Origin: Chthonomonadaceae bacterium
GTDB lineage: Bacteria > Armatimonadota > Chthonomonadetes > Chthonomonadales > Chthonomonadaceae
Length of the DNA stretch: 40,826 nucleotides
Direction of reading: 5' to 3'
Assembly: GCA_027450145.1 (NCBI GenBank)
Contig: DAIDKH010000040.1
Span: 1-40,826, forward strand
Shown: positions 29,684 to 37,993 of the stretch, in pieces
How the letters are laid out: every line of letters starts with the position of its first letter
How positions within the stretch are numbered: the stretch's first letter is position 1
The notes under the pieces: generated by a model
Told to the model about the DNA's origin: nothing
What the model saw: the letters and a program-made list of their open reading frames with translations, nothing else
Databases searched by the model: none
Translations under genes and position numbers: made by a program

Positions 29684-30038
29684 GCAGGACGCGTTCAACC
29701 TTGTCGATCGGGCACGGCATCCATTCCACATGCCCCATCAATCTGCACATAAGCGGGCGAACGGAATAAATCATACACGACTCGGTTTCCATGTCAAAGT
29801 ACCGACACATTGCAACAGTAACACCATCACCAAGGTCAACCGTTTTGTCCTGATGTTCGACTCGTCGCAATGCCTCAAGTTCGTCACCGGATAGTGTCTC
29901 AATGTGCCTGGAAACTGCGGCCCATTCGGTTGGTGCAAAAGGCACCTCGCTTGAGCAGCGTAAACTGCATTTTCTGCAGCCGTTGCAAGGACTGAAGTTA
30001 AGCTTTGTTGTGACCGCGAGATAGAGAGGCTCACTCAA
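29592..30038 (-). CDS. YkgJ-family cysteine-cluster protein
   Basis: 148 residues. The TTG start overlaps the TGA of the cyclase-STAND gene (TTGA), so translation is coupled. An N-terminal cluster CNGCRKCSLRC supplies Cys18, 21, 24 and 28; further Cys follow in AMCRYFDMETESCMIYSVRP, LMCRLMG and MPCP. The string C-x-IYxxRPxxCR is the YkgJ signature; the family is thought to bind zinc or an Fe-S cluster, and no reaction is established. It is the last gene of the SpoVR operon and its 3' end overlaps the convergent paralogue B by 92 bases. Confidence 0.85.
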   Translation of the reverse strand: MSEPLYLAVTTKLNFSPCNGCRKCSLRCSSEVPFAPTEWAAVSRHIETLSGDELEALRRVEHQDKTVDLGDGVTVAMCRYFDMETESCMIYSVRPLMCRLMGHVEWMPCPIDKVERVLPTAEALHLMEAYAGEMRQPASEWILESQSA

Positions 30039-32710
30039 CTTTGCATCCAGTCCAAAAGGCCTGGTCCGCAGGAAAGCGCGGAGTCTACCATAGCCTCCAA
30101 ATCGGCCTCACGTCCCTGTTTTAAGAGTTGGGTAAAGCTTGATTGGCCTAGACGTTCTTCCACCATTCTTGTAGTAGCATCGATCAACAAACGCTCTCTG
30201 GGCGTTCGAGCGTTGGGGCTGGCTTCTGTCCGCAGGCTTGCCGCGCCAAATAGCTGGGCAGCAACTGCCAGTTCACCGGTATGGGCAGCAAGTACAGCAA
30301 TTATGTAAAATGACCAGGCATAACTGCCAATGGCGCCTACTTGCCTCCTTATCCGCAGCGACTCACGCGCATGGCGCCAGGCATCTGTTGTTCTACCTAG
30401 AGTTATCTCCGCGGCAGCGAGGTTGTTAAGACAGACGGCGGTGGCGAGTGGATTGCCTATTTGGCGCCATTCAGCCAGGGCGTGATGCAGCAAATTTGCT
30501 GCGGCATCGTCCTGATGGTCGTTCCACAAAGCCTGCGCCAAATTCATTCGATTGGCGGGTAGACGTTGGTCCGAGCTAGATGTTTTCTGTGCGGTTAGCT
30601 GCTGTACGCTGTCTTCCAGAAGTGTAATGGCTTCCGCCGTATTCCCGGCAAAGGTCATGATTACGCCTAAATTACCCTGTGCACTGAGCGCAGAATAGGC
30701 CCTATCAACCTGGCGATATATATCTAGCGAGCGCCTCATCAGTGCCTCAGCAACGTCATAGGCCTCACAATGCACTGCCAGTGAGGCCCCTTCAGATAAG
30801 ACCTCCGCTAGCAGCTTGTCTTCTGCGCGCTGGCTCTGTTGGGCTACCTCAATTTGAGCGTTAATCCATCGCCGGGCCTCCTGTACCATTCCACGGTTTA
30901 ACCAGTAAATGGTAAGCGCCGATGCCAGATTAAGTCCATAGTCCTGATGCTGTGGCTGAAGCCCCAACATGAGGGCACGGCGAAGGTTTGGAAGTTCCTC
31001 GTCAATCTCGGCGAACCAGGAAGACGTTTTAGGTCCATAGGCCAAATTATAGTTTTTGTCTATCCATTGCGAATACCACTGGAGATGTCTCTTCTCCGCT
31101 TCTGCACGCATTCCGCTCTGTTCCAGCCGCTGCTGAGCGAATACCTGAACAGTTTCGAGAAGGTTGTATCGTTCGTCTCTGGGTTCATAATTCACCATGG
31201 ATTTGTCGACGAGCATTGCAAGTCCATCGACAACGTCCAGGCTATCGATCTCGTCGTCAGTACAAATAGACTCAACAGCAGTAAGCGTGAAGCCTCCTTG
31301 AAACACTGCCAGTCGGTTTAGTAGTACCTGCTCGCGTTTTCCTAGAAGGCCGTAGCTCCAATCCACAAGCGCATAAAGCGTGCGATGATGTGGAGTGGAG
31401 GGTTCCTCAGGCGCCGCCAGGAGCTGGAACCTGCGATCCATCTCTCTATCCAGTTCACGAATAGATAACTCGGACAGGCGCGCGGCTGCAAGCTCAATTG
31501 CAAGCGGAATGCCGTCAAGGCGCCTGCACACGGAGACGATTGCCGCGTTTGTCTCTACCGACTCGAGCTGCAGGCGATGCTGTGCGTGGGCTCGGTCGAT
31601 GAGAAGGCGGCAGGCATCAAACCCTAGCACAGCTTCCCTGTCCCATATGTCCCGGGTTGGCGGTAGTTGCAAGGTAGAGACCGAAAATATCTGTTCACCA
31701 GGTAGACCGAGGGACTCTCTACTTGTACAAAGTACAGACACCCCACAGCACTGCTGCATGATACGATCAATCAAAACGGCGGCTTCGTCCTTAAGGTGCT
31801 CGCAATTGTCAACTATCATAAGCACTTCCTGATTCCGCAACGCCTTCATGAGAGCAGTCTCATACGTTTCAGTGAGGGTAGGCACAACGCCAAATGCCGT
31901 GGCAAAGATCTGCGAAAGAAACTCGGCATCGTGCAACGAGGCCAGTGAGACCATGCGCACACCGTGGGCAAACCAATCTGCATTCTGCATGGCGCTCTGA
32001 AGCGCCAACCTCGTTTTACCAACACCACCAAACCCTACAAGAGTTACCAGGTTCTGAGTTCCACTTTTTCGGAATCGCTGCTGAAGCTCGGCTAATTCAG
32101 ATGCGCGTCCAATAAACGTGGAGGTGTGGACGGGTAGACTGAGCGACGCTGGCAACACCGTGACAACTGGCGGGAATACGTGCCCAAGAAGGTCGTGGCT
32201 AACCTGCCACACCTCCTCAGGTGGTGAAAGATCGCGAAGCCGCACCGAACCCAGCGATGTTACTCGAAACCCATCGGGAAGCGATGCGCGTAAATCCAGG
32301 ATATCGAGGCCAGCGGCCAGAATTTGGCCTCCGTTTGCAGCGCGAACGAGGCGCGACAGAAGATTTATTGTTCTACCCATGCTCTGCAGGCCAGTAGAGG
32401 CTTCTGTTGCACGAAAGATTGCCATGCGCAGAGAAATAGAGGCCGTAAATTCTTCCGTGAGGCCTTCCCTAGCGCGCATCATGCACTGTGCCTGCACGGC
32501 CGCCTCTGCAGCATCCGCTGCGGACTTAAATGCCGCGCAGATACCATCTCCCAACGTGTGCAGAATGGTACCGCCATGGGCCCGCACGGCCTCCTCAAGC
32601 CGCGAGTCGTGCCAATGCAGCACACCCTCCATGAGCGCAGGGAACTGCTCCCAGTGGCGGCTGCTGCCTACCATATCCGTATAAAGATAGTGTTGACTGT
32701 CGTCTACCAT
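30035..32710 (-). CDS. Class III cyclase domain fused to STAND/NB-ARC ATPase and TPRs
   Basis: 891 residues, ATG at 32710 four bases downstream of the SpoVR stop. N-terminal nucleotide cyclase homology domain, residues about 6-170: metal Asp12 in YLYTDMVGSSRHWE, Asp55 in ILHTLGDGICAAF, and GRTINLLSRLVRAANGGQIL with the transition-state Asn/Arg region. The usual Lys before the GDG loop is His51. Then an AfsR/NB-ARC ATPase from about 200: FIGRASELAEL, Walker A GFGGVGKTRLA, Walker B VLMIVDNCEHL, then RLDGIPLAIELAAARL and winged-helix region. From about 570 TPR-like helices (NLRRALMLG, MNLAQALWNDHQ, VCLNNLAAAEITLG). No C-terminal DNA-binding domain. It should be a signal-integrating ATPase switch; cyclase activity is uncertain. 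Confidence 0.9.
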   Translation of the reverse strand: MVDDSQHYLYTDMVGSSRHWEQFPALMEGVLHWHDSRLEEAVRAHGGTILHTLGDGICAAFKSAADAAEAAVQAQCMMRAREGLTEEFTASISLRMAIFRATEASTGLQSMGRTINLLSRLVRAANGGQILAAGLDILDLRASLPDGFRVTSLGSVRLRDLSPPEEVWQVSHDLLGHVFPPVVTVLPASLSLPVHTSTFIGRASELAELQQRFRKSGTQNLVTLVGFGGVGKTRLALQSAMQNADWFAHGVRMVSLASLHDAEFLSQIFATAFGVVPTLTETYETALMKALRNQEVLMIVDNCEHLKDEAAVLIDRIMQQCCGVSVLCTSRESLGLPGEQIFSVSTLQLPPTRDIWDREAVLGFDACRLLIDRAHAQHRLQLESVETNAAIVSVCRRLDGIPLAIELAAARLSELSIRELDREMDRRFQLLAAPEEPSTPHHRTLYALVDWSYGLLGKREQVLLNRLAVFQGGFTLTAVESICTDDEIDSLDVVDGLAMLVDKSMVNYEPRDERYNLLETVQVFAQQRLEQSGMRAEAEKRHLQWYSQWIDKNYNLAYGPKTSSWFAEIDEELPNLRRALMLGLQPQHQDYGLNLASALTIYWLNRGMVQEARRWINAQIEVAQQSQRAEDKLLAEVLSEGASLAVHCEAYDVAEALMRRSLDIYRQVDRAYSALSAQGNLGVIMTFAGNTAEAITLLEDSVQQLTAQKTSSSDQRLPANRMNLAQALWNDHQDDAAANLLHHALAEWRQIGNPLATAVCLNNLAAAEITLGRTTDAWRHARESLRIRRQVGAIGSYAWSFYIIAVLAAHTGELAVAAQLFGAASLRTEASPNARTPRERLLIDATTRMVEERLGQSSFTQLLKQGREADLEAMVDSALSCGPGLLDWMQS

Positions 32711-32713
32711 TGG

Positions 32714-34174
32714 TCAGGAACTCATTGGTTCCTGATGAAACTCCTCGCCATCGTGCGTGAATACGGTTGGTTTATCGTCAACTATCGTTTGCAAGTGAAC
32801 CGGCCGCCCCCAAATTTGAGCGATATAACGAAGCGTTCGGGCGCTATAATCCTCATCCAGCGGTTTGCCATCAAACGCATGCACTAGCAGCAGTTCACCA
32901 CGACGCAGGTAATCGCCATCCTCAACGTCTATTATCGGTATGCCAAAGTTGGTCATACCGTCCAGTATGGTATCGCGCACGTGGCGCCAATCCTTGTCGG
33001 TAACAACCCAGGCAGGTTCGCCGTTCACCTCCTGCTTGCGGTAGGTATACATATCCAGCCGGTGAACAAGCCCTTGAGTAAGATATTTTCGCAGGAACGA
33101 GACATCGTTATCATCTCGGCGAACGTCAAAAATTTTGCGCGTTCCTTCCCCCGTCGGGCGGGTTAACGGCTCATCCTGCCAATCAGTCTCGTCAAAATCC
33201 ACATCGGGATCACCGTTCCACCTGCGTTCTATATCTCTAAACATATTGTATCCCACGTAGTATGGATTAATGGACATAGACGAACCGGGTGACAGCACCG
33301 AAGAGTGAAGTTTACGGAATTCTAGATGCTCTTCTGCGGTAAGCGGAAGATTGGTGAGAATACGCTCGTGCCAAAATGAGGCCCATCCCTCGTTCATGAT
33401 CTTCGTTCTCATTTGAGGAATGAAATAGATCATCTCCTCGCGGATCATGTTGATAACGTCGCGCTGCCAACGCGCAAGGTCTGGCGCATAGTCGCGCAAA
33501 AAGCCCAAAAGGTCACGATCAGGCTGAGGAGGGTTCTTCCTCGTGCTGGGCACGGCCGGCCCTTCCGGTGCGGTGGTGAGGTACCACAGATCATCGAACT
33601 CGGTTGAGGCAGGCGCCTTGCTAGCCACCACCTCTTCGTCGCTGCGGCTCTCTTTCTTTTTACCAAACGAAGCCGTAAGGCCGGTATCGAAGTGATACTC
33701 TATTGAAAGTACTGCATCGAGAAATGCTTCCACTTTATCCCGACCAAACTCGTCCTCATACTTTCGAATACGGTTAGAGTGCAGCCGCACCTTTTCAATC
33801 ATGTGCCGATCGGTTTGATCGAAGTAGACGTTGTTTTTAAAAAAGTCGTTGTGCCCAAGTACATGCGCAATCACGAATTTGTGAGACAACATAGAGTTGC
33901 TGTCCATAAGGAAAGCCTGGCACGGGTTCGTATTGAATACGATTTCGTAGATTTTCGCCATGCCGTACTCGTACATGGTCTTTTGTTGATGGTAATCGCG
34001 ACCAAACGTCCAGTGCGAAAACCGGGCGGGAAGACCATAACTACCCAGTTCGTAGATGATGTAGTCTGGCACGACTTCGAAGTTCGTGGGGTAGCAATCG
34101 AGACCGTAATCCACTGCGGCCTGTGTAATGATGTCAATCCATCGGCGAAGTTCGGTTTGGTCAGTTAGGTTCAT
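32714..34174 (-). CDS. SpoVR family protein
   Basis: 486 residues from ATG 34174, five bases after GGGAGG; the ATG seven codons earlier overlaps that site. Family marks: DYGLDCYPTNFEVVPDYI, GLPARFSHWTFGRDYH, YEIVFNTNPCQAFLMDSNS, VIAHVLGHNDFFKNN, NEGWASFWHERIL and YYVGYNMFRDIERRW. SpoVR was found in Bacillus spore cortex formation and YcgB is its E. coli relative, usually beside yeaG/yeaH-like genes; those are not here. Spores are not known for Armatimonadota, so a stress role is more likely. The cyclase-STAND gene begins four bases after its stop and the YkgJ gene overlaps that one, giving a tight three-gene operon. It is divergent from dnaK. Confidence 0.95.
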   Translation of the reverse strand: MNLTDQTELRRWIDIITQAAVDYGLDCYPTNFEVVPDYIIYELGSYGLPARFSHWTFGRDYHQQKTMYEYGMAKIYEIVFNTNPCQAFLMDSNSMLSHKFVIAHVLGHNDFFKNNVYFDQTDRHMIEKVRLHSNRIRKYEDEFGRDKVEAFLDAVLSIEYHFDTGLTASFGKKKESRSDEEVVASKAPASTEFDDLWYLTTAPEGPAVPSTRKNPPQPDRDLLGFLRDYAPDLARWQRDVINMIREEMIYFIPQMRTKIMNEGWASFWHERILTNLPLTAEEHLEFRKLHSSVLSPGSSMSINPYYVGYNMFRDIERRWNGDPDVDFDETDWQDEPLTRPTGEGTRKIFDVRRDDNDVSFLRKYLTQGLVHRLDMYTYRKQEVNGEPAWVVTDKDWRHVRDTILDGMTNFGIPIIDVEDGDYLRRGELLLVHAFDGKPLDEDYSARTLRYIAQIWGRPVHLQTIVDDKPTVFTHDGEEFHQEPMSS

Positions 34175-34301
34175 CTCACCCTCCCTCACGCTCAAAATAG
34201 GCAGAACGTGACCCTCTACACGCCATTATTGGCAATGGAAGCTGCCATTTAGTATCAATACCATACGACTGACCGTTGAACGGTGTTTGCCACGTGGAAC
34301 C

Positions 34302-34361
34302 GACACTACCATCTTATCGTAAATTGACAATAGGATACTAAAGTGGTATCATGATAGTGTC
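34302..34361. promoter_or_regulatory. Inverted repeat flanking the dnaK promoter
   Basis: GACACTACCAT (34302-34312) and ATGATAGTGTC (34351-34361) are inverted with one mismatch over 11 bases, centres 49 bases apart. The arms enclose the -35 and overlap the -10 end. Candidate HspR or other repressor operator; it does not look like the CTTGAGT-N7-ACTCAAG HAIR box of actinomycetes. A nested GATAC/GTATC pair lies inside. Confidence 0.5.
34324..34352 (+). promoter_or_regulatory. dnaK promoter
   Basis: TTGACA (34324-34329), a 17-base spacer, TATCAT (34347-34352). Transcript start near 34359, about 57 bases before the ATG at 34416. Housekeeping-type promoter flanked by an inverted repeat, as expected for a repressor-controlled heat-shock operon. 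Confidence 0.8.
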
Positions 34362-34415
34362 AATAATTACGGCATCAACATTAGGTTAAAAAGCATATTT
34401 GCGGAGGATTTACAC

Positions 34416-36275
34416 ATGGGCAAAGCAGTGGGCATCGACCTGGGCACCACAAACTCAGTCGTGTCTGTGATTGAGGGAGGCGAACCTACCGTTATCGCCA
34501 ATGCCGAGGGCAGCCGGCTGACACCTTCTGTTGTTGGTTTCAACAAGAGTGGTGAGCGACTGGTTGGGGCCAATGCGAAAAGGCAGGCGATTATTCATCC
34601 AGATCGCACCATCATTAGCATCAAACGAAAAGTGGGCACTTCCGAGAAGGTTACGATCGACTCCAAGAGTTATTCACCGGAAGAGATTTCCGCAATGATT
34701 CTGCAGAAGCTTAAGGCCGATGCCGAAGCGTACCTGGGGCAGCCTGTTACTGAGGCGGTCATTACCGTACCGGCCTACTTCAACGATGCTCAGCGTACGG
34801 CAACCAAAAACGCAGGTGAAATTGCCGGGCTCAAGGTCCTGCGCATCATTAACGAGCCGACGGCAGCAGCGCTTGCCTACGGTCTCGACAAAAAACATGA
34901 AGAGAAGGTTCTTGTTTTCGACCTTGGCGGTGGTACCTTCGACGTTACAGTCCTTGAGATTGGCAAAACCGAGGACGGTGGTACCGTTCTCGAAGTTTTA
35001 TCGACCAGCGGCGACACCCACCTGGGCGGTGACGACTGGGATCAGCGGATCGTAGATTATGTTGCCGACGAGTTCAAAAAAGAGACATCTATCGACCTAC
35101 GGAAAGATAGGCAGGCCCTTCAGCGGGTTCGAGAGGCCGCGGAAAAGGCAAAGATTGAGCTTAGTAGCGTTACGCAGACAAACATCAATCTGCCCTTCGT
35201 CTCCAGCACGCCAGATGGTCCAGTTCACCTGGATGTTAACCTGACTCGCGCCCGTTTTGAGGAGATCACGCGCGACCTGGTGGATCGTTGCGCAAAGCCC
35301 TTCGAGGCCGCTCTTCGAGATGCGAAACTGTCTGCAGGTCAGGTAGATGAGATTGTACTCGTTGGTGGTTCTACGCGAATGCCGATGATACAGGATCTTG
35401 TACGCAAGCTGGGAGGCGGTAAGGAACCCAACAAAACTGTCAACCCCGACGAGGTTGTCGCTGTTGGCGCTGCCGTACAGGCAGGTGTACTTTCTGGTGA
35501 TGCGGGTTCTGCGGGTACAAACATCCTCTTGCTGGATGTAACGCCCCTCTCTCTTGGTATTGAGACACTGGGCGGAGTAATGACAAAGCTCATTGAGCGC
35601 AACACCACGATCCCAACTCGAAAGAGTGACGTATTTAGTACGGCAGAGGATGGCCAGAGCAGCGTACATGTGAAAGTATTCCAGGGTGAGCGCGAGATCG
35701 CTGCGCACAACAAAATGCTGGGCGACTTCCAGCTTACCGGTCTTCCACCGGCACCGCGCGGTGTACCGCAGATTGAGGTTGCGTTCGACATAGACGCTAA
35801 CGGCATCGTGAGCGTGTCTGCCAAGGATAAGGGTACCGGCCGAGAACAAAAGATCACGATTACCGGCTCTAGCAACCTTAACAAGGATGAGGTAGAGCGC
35901 ATGGTGCGCGAAGCCGCAATGCATGCCGAAGAGGATAAGAAACAGAAGGAAATCGCCGAGGCAAGGAACCGTGCAGAGTCGATGATCTATCAGACCGAGA
36001 AGACGATTAAAGACCTGCAGGATAAGGTGCCATCTGACCTGAAGCTGGATGTGGAAAACCACATCACCAACCTTCGCGCGGCGCTTAACAACTCGGCACC
36101 GGTTGAAGAGTTGACGCCACTCATTGAGGCACTGGAACAGAGCACGTACAAACTCTCGGAGATTCTGTACCAGCAGACCGCAGCAGAAGGCGCCGGCAGC
36201 CCGGACGGTACTGCGCCGCAGGATGAGCACACGTCAGCACCAGATGACACAGTGCTCGACACCGAGTTCAAGTAA
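34416..36275 (+). CDS. dnaK: Hsp70 chaperone DnaK
   Basis: 619 residues, ATG after GGAGG. ATP-dependent folding chaperone of the cytoplasm. Phosphate loop 1 [17 protein letters not shown] at the start, [31 protein letters not shown], phosphate loop 2 [18 protein letters not shown] and adenosine-loop [16 protein letters not shown]. Linker [17 protein letters not shown] leads to the substrate domain, then a helical lid and a variable tail that ends DTVLDTEFK rather than the common EEVK. Length is near the usual 610-640. It leads the operon dnaK, dnaJ, hspR; grpE is missing between dnaK and dnaJ and must lie elsewhere. Promoter 34324-34352; a terminator-like hairpin follows it. Confidence 0.98.
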
Positions 36276-36356: not shown

Positions 36357-37406
36357 GTGAGCGGAATGGACTACTACAAAATCCTGGGGGTAGACCGAAA
36401 GGCGTCGGACGAGGATATTAAAAAAGCCTACCGACGCAAGGCGCGAGAGTGCCATCCTGATCTTAACCCTCACAACAAAACTGCAGAGGACCAATTTAAA
36501 CGCATTCAGGAAGCGTACGACGTGCTGTCGGATCCCGACAAGCGCAGCAAATTCGACAGGTATGGGGAATTCTGGCAGCAGGCCGGTATGGGTGCACCAC
36601 CGCCGCCGCCACGGGGAGCTTCCGGTTCACGACAGGCTCAGGCTCCCGGCTTTATAGACTTAGATAACCTGGGCAACCTGGGTATGGACGACATATTCAG
36701 CATGTTCTCAGGTGGGCGCTCAACACGCGCGCAGAGCCATAGTCCTTTTGGTTCCGGTTCGGCGTCTCCCGCAGAGGATGTCGCCTTCAGTGTGGACATC
36801 ACGTTAGAGGAAGCCTACCGGGGCGTTCACAAAACGCTAAACCTTACCGTCGAGGACGTGTGTCCCACCTGTAAGGGGACAGGTTTCAAAAAGCCGGCGG
36901 GCCGCTCTGGATCTCAGGAGCGCTGTACCCACTGTAAAGGCACCGGCCGCCTGGAGACCCCCAGAACTATACAACTTAATGCGCCCGCTGGCGCCTGGGA
37001 CGGTATGAGGAGCCGGCACCAGGGAGCTGGCCCAATGGATGTAAATCACAAGCGCGCTGATCTATACGTTGTCCTGCAGGTGCTTCCACATCCCAAATTC
37101 GACCGGAATCCTGAAAATCAGGATCTTCAGTTTGAAATGAACGTACCGTACACAGTAGCCGCCCTGGGTGGCGAAGTGACCGTTGAGACGCTGGATGGCC
37201 AGAAGCGGCAGCTGGTCGTTCCGCCAGGTATTCAAACAGGACAGAAACTGCGAATGGCAGGACAGGGCATGCCAGGTTTGCGTGAACGGCCAAGAGGCGA
37301 CATGTACGCGCAAGTACGGGTCGTCGTGCCTAAAGATCTGCAGCCGCGGGAGATGCAGCTGCTGCGTGAGATTGCCGCGATTAGGGGTGACGCCGTAAAA
37401 CAGTGA
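36357..37406 (+). CDS. dnaJ: DnaJ-type co-chaperone with reduced zinc domain
   Basis: 349 residues from GTG 36357, nine bases after GGGGAG; an ATG three codons later also fits. J domain at about 4-66 with HPD at 33-35 ([13 protein letters not shown]), which stimulates DnaK ATPase. A Gly/Pro/Ser linker follows ([15 protein letters not shown]). The cysteine domain has only two CxxCxGxG units, CPTCKGTG (169-176) and CTHCKGTG (190-197), instead of four, so one zinc site remains. The C-terminal client-binding domains include [33 protein letters not shown] and [20 protein letters not shown]. It is intermediate between DnaJ and CbpA. hspR follows 65 bases later on the same strand. Confidence 0.94.
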
Positions 37407-37471: not shown

Positions 37472-37819
37472 ATGGCTGCGCATGATAGAACTGAACCAGT
37501 CTATATGATAGGGGTTGTGGCTGAGCTAACCCATATGCACGCTCAGACCATCAGGCTATATGAACGGTTGGGTCTGGTAACGCCGCAGCGCCGCAATAAA
37601 AACCGGCTATATTCTGAAACTGATGTGGAGCGACTTCGAAGAATTAGACGCCTGACGCAGGAGATGGGCGTAAATCTGGCTGGCGTACAGGTTATACTTG
37701 ATCTGCTTGAGCGCCTGGAGCAACTTCAGGTTGAGCGTGATACCCTTCATCAGCGAAGCCAATTCATAGAGGATAGAATACGGGAGTTTATGGCGCAGAA
37801 TGGTGGGCAGTTTCCCTGA
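37472..37819 (+). CDS. hspR: HspR, MerR-family heat-shock repressor
   Basis: 115 residues from ATG 37472, seven bases after GGAGGAG. MerR-type winged helix: PVYMIGVVAELTHMHAQTIR, LYERLGLVTPQRRNKNRLYS, ETDVERLRRIRRLTQEMGVN, LAGVQVILDLLERLEQL, then a coiled coil QVERDTLHQRSQFIEDRIRE. HspR sits after dnaK and dnaJ in many bacteria and represses the operon, with DnaK as co-repressor. The frame closes at TGA 37817-37819, but the same frame stays open for 57 further codons to TAA 37991-37993 and looks coding; see the next entry. The terminator 38045-38074 follows. Confidence 0.95.
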   Translation: MAAHDRTEPVYMIGVVAELTHMHAQTIRLYERLGLVTPQRRNKNRLYSETDVERLRRIRRLTQEMGVNLAGVQVILDLLERLEQLQVERDTLHQRSQFIEDRIREFMAQNGGQFP

Positions 37820-37993
37820 CTCACTACGTTAGAACCGCTGCCGCCGGGCCCCGATGCTCCTGAACTTCTCTCCGCTCCCCTGCCCGGCTCCATTCTAAAG
37901 CTGCTCTCGCCGGCTCCCATCATCCTGGGCCCAATTGAGGAGCCGGACGCGGCAGTCAAACCTAAAAAACGCAGCCGCAAAACGACGTTGTAA
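37820..37993 (+). pseudogene. In-frame C-terminal continuation of hspR after TGA
   Basis: Same frame as hspR, 57 sense codons then TAA. The translated part starts LTTLEPLPPGPDAPELLSAP, continues with a hydrophobic LPGSILKLLSPAPIILGPIEE and ends with the basic KPKKRSRKTTL. Pro/Leu-rich then Lys/Arg-rich composition is not what random sequence gives. No start codon or ribosome site of its own is seen. It may be the lost tail of a longer HspR (recent nonsense change), a UGA read-through product, or a sequencing error at one base. The stop context is TGAC. Confidence 0.55.

Follow-up and report, generated by a model that had tools for sequence, protein, structure and literature searches.

The locus raises the question of whether the heat-shock repressor HspR of a Chthonomonadaceae bacterium ends at the in-frame TGA that closes its annotated frame, or whether part of its translation continues through this codon into a second, C-terminal segment.

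The hspR frame and its conserved TGA

The window (the whole stretch of DNA analysed, 40,826 nucleotides, contig C40) comes from a genome of 4.14 Mb in 168 contigs and carries a dnaK-dnaJ-hspR cluster on the plus strand, composed of dnaK (34416..36275) as the first gene, a dnaJ-type co-chaperone gene (36366..37406) directly upstream of hspR, and hspR itself. This gene order is kept in those family loci that extend far enough. The short form of hspR (37472..37819) starts with ATG at 37472 and encodes a 115-aa protein with a MerR-type HTH and a coiled coil, which ends with GGQFP before the TGA at 37817..37819 (context TTT CCC TGA CTC); its score against the NCBIfam HspR equivalog NF047375 is 108.9 bits, above the cut-off of 105. 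The first-pass annotation stated that the frame stays open beyond this TGA, and we confirmed a tail of 57 codons (37820..37990, plus strand; LTTLEPLPPG...LLSPAPIILGP...KPKKRSRKTTL) until TAA at 37991..37993, the second and real end of the hspR frame. The operon terminator that was placed soon after this TAA could not be recovered, as a scan of the window gave no clear intrinsic terminator directly 3' of it. No Pfam match was obtained for the tail alone. An open frame of 57 codons by itself means little, because the chance of an open frame is 0.23 after shuffling of the window tail, and because 18% of 152 sampled genes in the family show at least 44 open codons past their stops.

As a comparative test, we searched the related genomes for orthologues using HspR without its tail as the query. 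An hspR orthologue was identified in 13 of the 17 Chthonomonadaceae genomes (65-98% identity), representing nine genera and including the complete genome of the cultured Chthonomonas calidirosea T49 (single contig, 3,437,861 bp; PMC4959169). The TGA is located at the identical codon in all 13 orthologues, where a GG(K/Q/E)FP-like motif immediately precedes it, and is followed in every case by an in-frame homologous tail made up of LDxLEPLPPG and a middle part that is rich in Pro and contains PPxxLPPP; most of the tails also have a basic end. A common end of the orthologues without any shared tail had been named as the result that would refute the significance of the open frame; the end is indeed common, yet the tail is shared. 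Eleven tails are complete, with 44 to 66 codons, and the other two are cut off by the contig end at 34 and 6 codons. Among the complete tails, the second stop varies (TAA in 2, TAG in 6 and TGA in 3). The contrast between a constant first stop and a variable second stop is telling, because TGA accounts for only 32% of the stops of the 152 sampled family genes.

The sequence context of the TGA is also conserved. The context CCN-TGA-CTN is found in 13/13 hspR genes but in none of 49 TGA-ended genes of the family sample, and the codon that follows is CTG (8 orthologues), CTC (3) or CTA (2), giving Leu throughout. The UGA-C stop context, which had been described as one of the leakier ones, is thus conserved in all 13 genes, although the leakiness itself is taken from the literature. 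The preference for CTN over the TTR Leu codons is statistically weak (P about 0.02-0.09, not corrected for kinship), and beyond the requirement for Leu the preference for C at position +4 is likewise only weak. Note that the 13 genomes of the comparative set are mostly metagenome bins and that kinship among the sequences limits the use of simple probabilities.

Selection on the tail

The pattern of substitution indicates that the tail is evolving as protein in the hspR frame, under purifying selection. Within genera, the tails are 70-79% identical in amino acids, with 33-54% identity at the third codon positions. Between the window genome (G000) and the relative G001, the protein identity of the tail is 79%, and the identities at codon positions 1, 2 and 3 are 75, 89 and 37%, respectively, with a dN of 0.16 and a saturated dS; for three species of genus g3, dN is 0.17-0.22 and dS ranges from 0.9 to more than 2. 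When the substitutions were redistributed at random, 25.5 +/- 2.6 of the 57 residues were expected to be identical, as against the 45 observed, a value reached in none of 5000 randomisations. Frame 0 carries no stop in a total of 662 tail codons; the other sense frames (+1 and +2) score much lower and are interrupted by stops in most tails. Between genera, the identity of the tail falls to about 36-43%, below that of the HspR body.

Among the 10 window genes that are also present on the G001 contig, only hspR carries a conserved tail after its stop, the only other frame conserved past a stop being that of the following gene. At window positions 30035-34195 (minus strand), an 891-aa cyclase/ATPase-like regulator is encoded in the same frame as a SpoVR-family gene and within a few bases after it; this SpoVR gene ends with TGA in the window and with TAA in G001.

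Outside the family, a profile of the long form of HspR found matches in 260 of 291 Armatimonadota genomes. Among the best matches, which alone were listed, a strong match running through one TGA into the tail was obtained only for the 13 Chthonomonadaceae and for none of the 247 other matching genomes, whose listed matches end near residues 90-130, apart from a few weak extensions through one or several stops, which differ in kind. The HspRs of the sister families within the order are tailless. In the large family f14 and its neighbours (loci L099-L107 and L114-L118), HspR carries an ordinarily translated tail, DExLLPVPxIxxRRKxDI, which may be a functional counterpart of the readthrough tail. 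As both tailless and tailed HspRs exist as ordinary proteins in the phylum, it is suggested that one gene makes both in Chthonomonadaceae, which appear to encode the two types in a single gene.

Probable decoding of the UGA

Readthrough of the UGA, one of the explanations raised by the first-pass annotation, is supported by this comparative evidence. We estimate at about 0.82 the probability that the hspR TGA is a site of programmed UGA readthrough, from which a short and a long HspR would be made; the estimate rests on sequence comparison, without expression, proteomic or ribosome-profiling data. Under this model, most ribosomes would terminate at the TGA to yield the 115-aa HspR, while a minority would decode UGA and go on in frame to 37990, yielding an HspR of about 173 aa with a Pro-rich, hydrophobic, basic and presumably disordered tail. 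For the ribosome paused at Pro-UGA-C, we infer that tRNATrp would at times enter instead of RF2, and that readthrough is probably performed by this near-cognate tRNA, with Trp as the most likely residue inserted. Among the stop codons of E. coli, TGA is the leakiest and is read mainly with insertion of Trp, and Pro or Gly at positions -1 and -2 increases readthrough (PMC11126739). Since E. coli readthrough drops from 18 to 42 C (PMC11126739), the direction of any effect of heat is uncertain. For C. calidirosea T49, the predicted peptide spanning the stop is YGGEFP, followed by W or another residue and then LDNLEPLPPGRPLPELLPPPLR, and a peptide predicted from the tail is SLAPPPIVLPSPAK.

In the oriented family sequences, the region 3' of the hspR TGA showed no conserved RNA stimulator. 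An unusual tRNATrp was also considered and rejected: the copies from five genomes (G003, G007, G008, G009 and G012) carry a CCA anticodon and an anticodon stem of five positions, whose top pair is G-U in G007 and G009, and nothing resembling a 4-bp stem was detected in them; for the window genome, no tRNATrp matched the pattern used. Global reassignment of UGA was rejected as well, for its share among the sampled genes marks TGA as an ordinary stop in this family. A search for viral contigs gave no match.

Among the alternatives, the insertion of selenocysteine at the UGA, by which the long HspR would be a selenoprotein made with SelA, SelB and tRNASec, merits serious consideration, as the machinery exists in the family (tRNASec and SelA each in 12/17 genomes, SelB above cut-off in 14/17) and genuine selenocysteine UGA codons are present in FDH genes of several members. 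However, SelA and tRNASec are both absent from G006 (95% complete), G012 (96%) and G008 (87%), in which the SelB homologues have lost their GTPase motifs, and all three genomes retain CCN-TGA-CTN together with the tail, to the extent that their sequences reach. Past the hspR TGA there is no conserved hairpin (alifold 0.0), while the FDH control gave the GUCGUCGGUCUGGCGAC stem-loop, and the third codon positions past the hspR TGA diverge freely. A Cys codon replaces the TGA in none of the 13 orthologues, while FDH-type genes occur both with and without TGA. The absence of a gene from draft genomes is never absolute, but the three double absences concur. Given the three genomes without SelA and tRNASec, the lack of a SECIS and the lack of Cys forms, we reject selenocysteine as a general explanation and retain it only as an improbable one. 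The SelB homologues in the genomes without SelA and tRNASec are full-length but decayed (L048, 7742-9688; L046, 5135-7021; L047, 4521-6365; all on the minus strand): the GTPase motif GHVDHGKT is changed to GAANHGKT, GSEASALL and GDVEQGKT, and the C-terminal winged-helix part is conserved. These homologues are perhaps a repurposed RNA-binding protein.

Even less probable is that the tail forms a small ORF of its own, which would be expressed by termination-reinitiation or by internal initiation and never fused to HspR. CTG, the codon after the TGA in most orthologues, might serve as its start, but the CTC and CTA of the remaining five are not start codons, it is exactly at this codon that conservation sets in, and no conserved ATG, GTG or TTG is found near the tail start in the 13 orthologues.

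We give very little credence to the view that the tail is the remnant of a longer ancestral HspR, left by a fresh nonsense mutation, by decay or by an assembly error. Tailed HspRs do exist in the phylum, as the ordinary translated tails of f14 attest. The first-pass annotation had kept open both a fresh nonsense mutation and a sequence error, and both are excluded by the presence of the same TGA and tail in 13 separate genomes of nine genera, with saturated synonymous divergence and with the finished genome of the isolate C. calidirosea T49 among them; decay is refuted by the strong purifying selection on the tail. A +1 frameshift at CCN-UGA-C in the style of the RF2 gene is as hard to sustain: CCC or CCU followed by UGA C looks slippery, like the RF2 site CUU UGA C, but the +1 frame is interrupted in 13/13 tails, in several within a few codons (GAC TCA CTA CGT TAG in the window), and it shows no protein conservation, in contrast to frame 0. 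That the conserved tail DNA is part of an antisense gene can be dismissed with similar confidence, for the one antisense frame that is open in G000, G001 and genus g3 (62-81% identity among close relatives) carries stops in G006, G007, G008 and G012 and, in all pairs tested, shows lower conservation than sense frame 0.

Possible function and comparison with known systems

With programmed readthrough as the preferred reading, the tail may be considered for its function. AlphaFold modelling from an 11-sequence alignment predicted the HTH and the coiled coil with confidence and left the tail unstructured at low confidence (pLDDT 43-64), in line with its predicted disorder; the nearest solved structures to the predicted HspR include MerR-family folds. 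For mycobacterial HspR, DnaK is reported to bind to the C-terminal region, and the C-terminal tail functions in degradation (PMC10415612). By analogy with mycobacteria alone, and with binding only inferred, the Chthonomonadaceae tail could confer DnaK-responsive or turnover control on HspR, a proposal that we regard as tentative and somewhat short of even odds. The long HspR would then be the DnaK-responsive or unstable form and the short HspR would not, and the ratio of short to long HspR might tune the feedback onto the HAIR operator of its own operon.

This operator, CTTGA-N11-TCAAG, lies across the -35 region of the dnaK promoter in G007, G008, G013 and G014 and is degenerate in the window and in G001. 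In the window, the sigma70-like dnaK promoter (34323..34352, plus strand; TTGACA-17-TATCAT) is overlapped by the degenerate HAIR-like operator (34323-34343, plus strand; ATTGA-N11-TAAAG). About 70 nt at this promoter (window 34311-34380) are identical to G001, with diverged flanks, and this segment also carries a second inverted repeat, TTGACA...TGTCAA, beside the degenerate site. As a separate observation on the same operon, the DnaJ-type protein encoded at 36366-37406 has two CxxCxGxG motifs instead of four, that is, half a zinc-finger domain, and scores 22 bits with Pfam DnaJ_CXXCXGXG against a cut-off of 32.7, falling also under the cut-off of TIGR02349.

It is more doubtful, and in our judgement unlikely on present grounds, that the level of readthrough is itself a regulated signal, following temperature, RF2 activity or translation accuracy, by which the ratio of short to long HspR would link chaperone expression to the ribosome's state. 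If true, this would be a translational recoding sensor within a bacterial heat-shock circuit.

Apart from such regulation, fixation of the UGA and of the tail behind it extends over the whole family, in a central stress regulator, and standard gene calling would omit about one third of the long HspR in all its members. The existence of two HspR forms is a clear prediction, testable in the cultured and sequenced C. calidirosea T49.

In viruses and animals, functional and evolutionarily fixed readthrough is well documented. To our knowledge, fixed readthrough is hardly known for ordinary bacterial chromosomal genes, selenocysteine and pyrrolysine apart. In the open-access literature, we found no precedent for readthrough in Armatimonadota or for programmed readthrough in bacterial genes, and a 2016 review described regulation of RF2 via same-frame readthrough as unknown in any organism (PMC5009743).

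Like the animal readthrough genes (those of Drosophila, and mammalian MDH1, VDR and OPRL1), hspR combines a conserved leaky stop with coding selection downstream and a C-terminally extended form, but it is bacterial, terminated by RF2 and encodes a heat-shock repressor, and no downstream RNA stimulator was found. It shares with bacterial selenoprotein genes (such as formate dehydrogenase) an in-frame UGA with coding conservation on both sides, in a family that has the machinery; unlike them, it has no SECIS and no Cys homologues and persists without SelA and tRNASec. With the +1 frameshift site of prfB (RF2), it shares a conserved leaky UGA-C in a regulatory gene and a choice between termination and elongation; in hspR, in contrast, readthrough stays in the same frame, lies near the 3' end and would give two products. 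In-frame stops are widespread in bacteria and mostly short-lived (Belinky et al. 2021, PMC7918605); these resemble hspR in a dN/dS below 1 around the stop, but most of them arose recently and do not persist over long times, whereas the hspR TGA is fixed in nine genera. A further likeness is to the HspR of Mycobacterium and Streptomyces, likewise a MerR-type repressor encoded inside the dnaK operon, with HAIR operators and a disordered C-terminal tail. There, however, the tail, which serves in DnaK co-repression and as a handle for degradation by Bpa, is always translated, whereas in Chthonomonadaceae it stands behind a conserved UGA. Programmed readthrough is a known process, and its use in a family-fixed stress regulator on a bacterial chromosome appears to be new.
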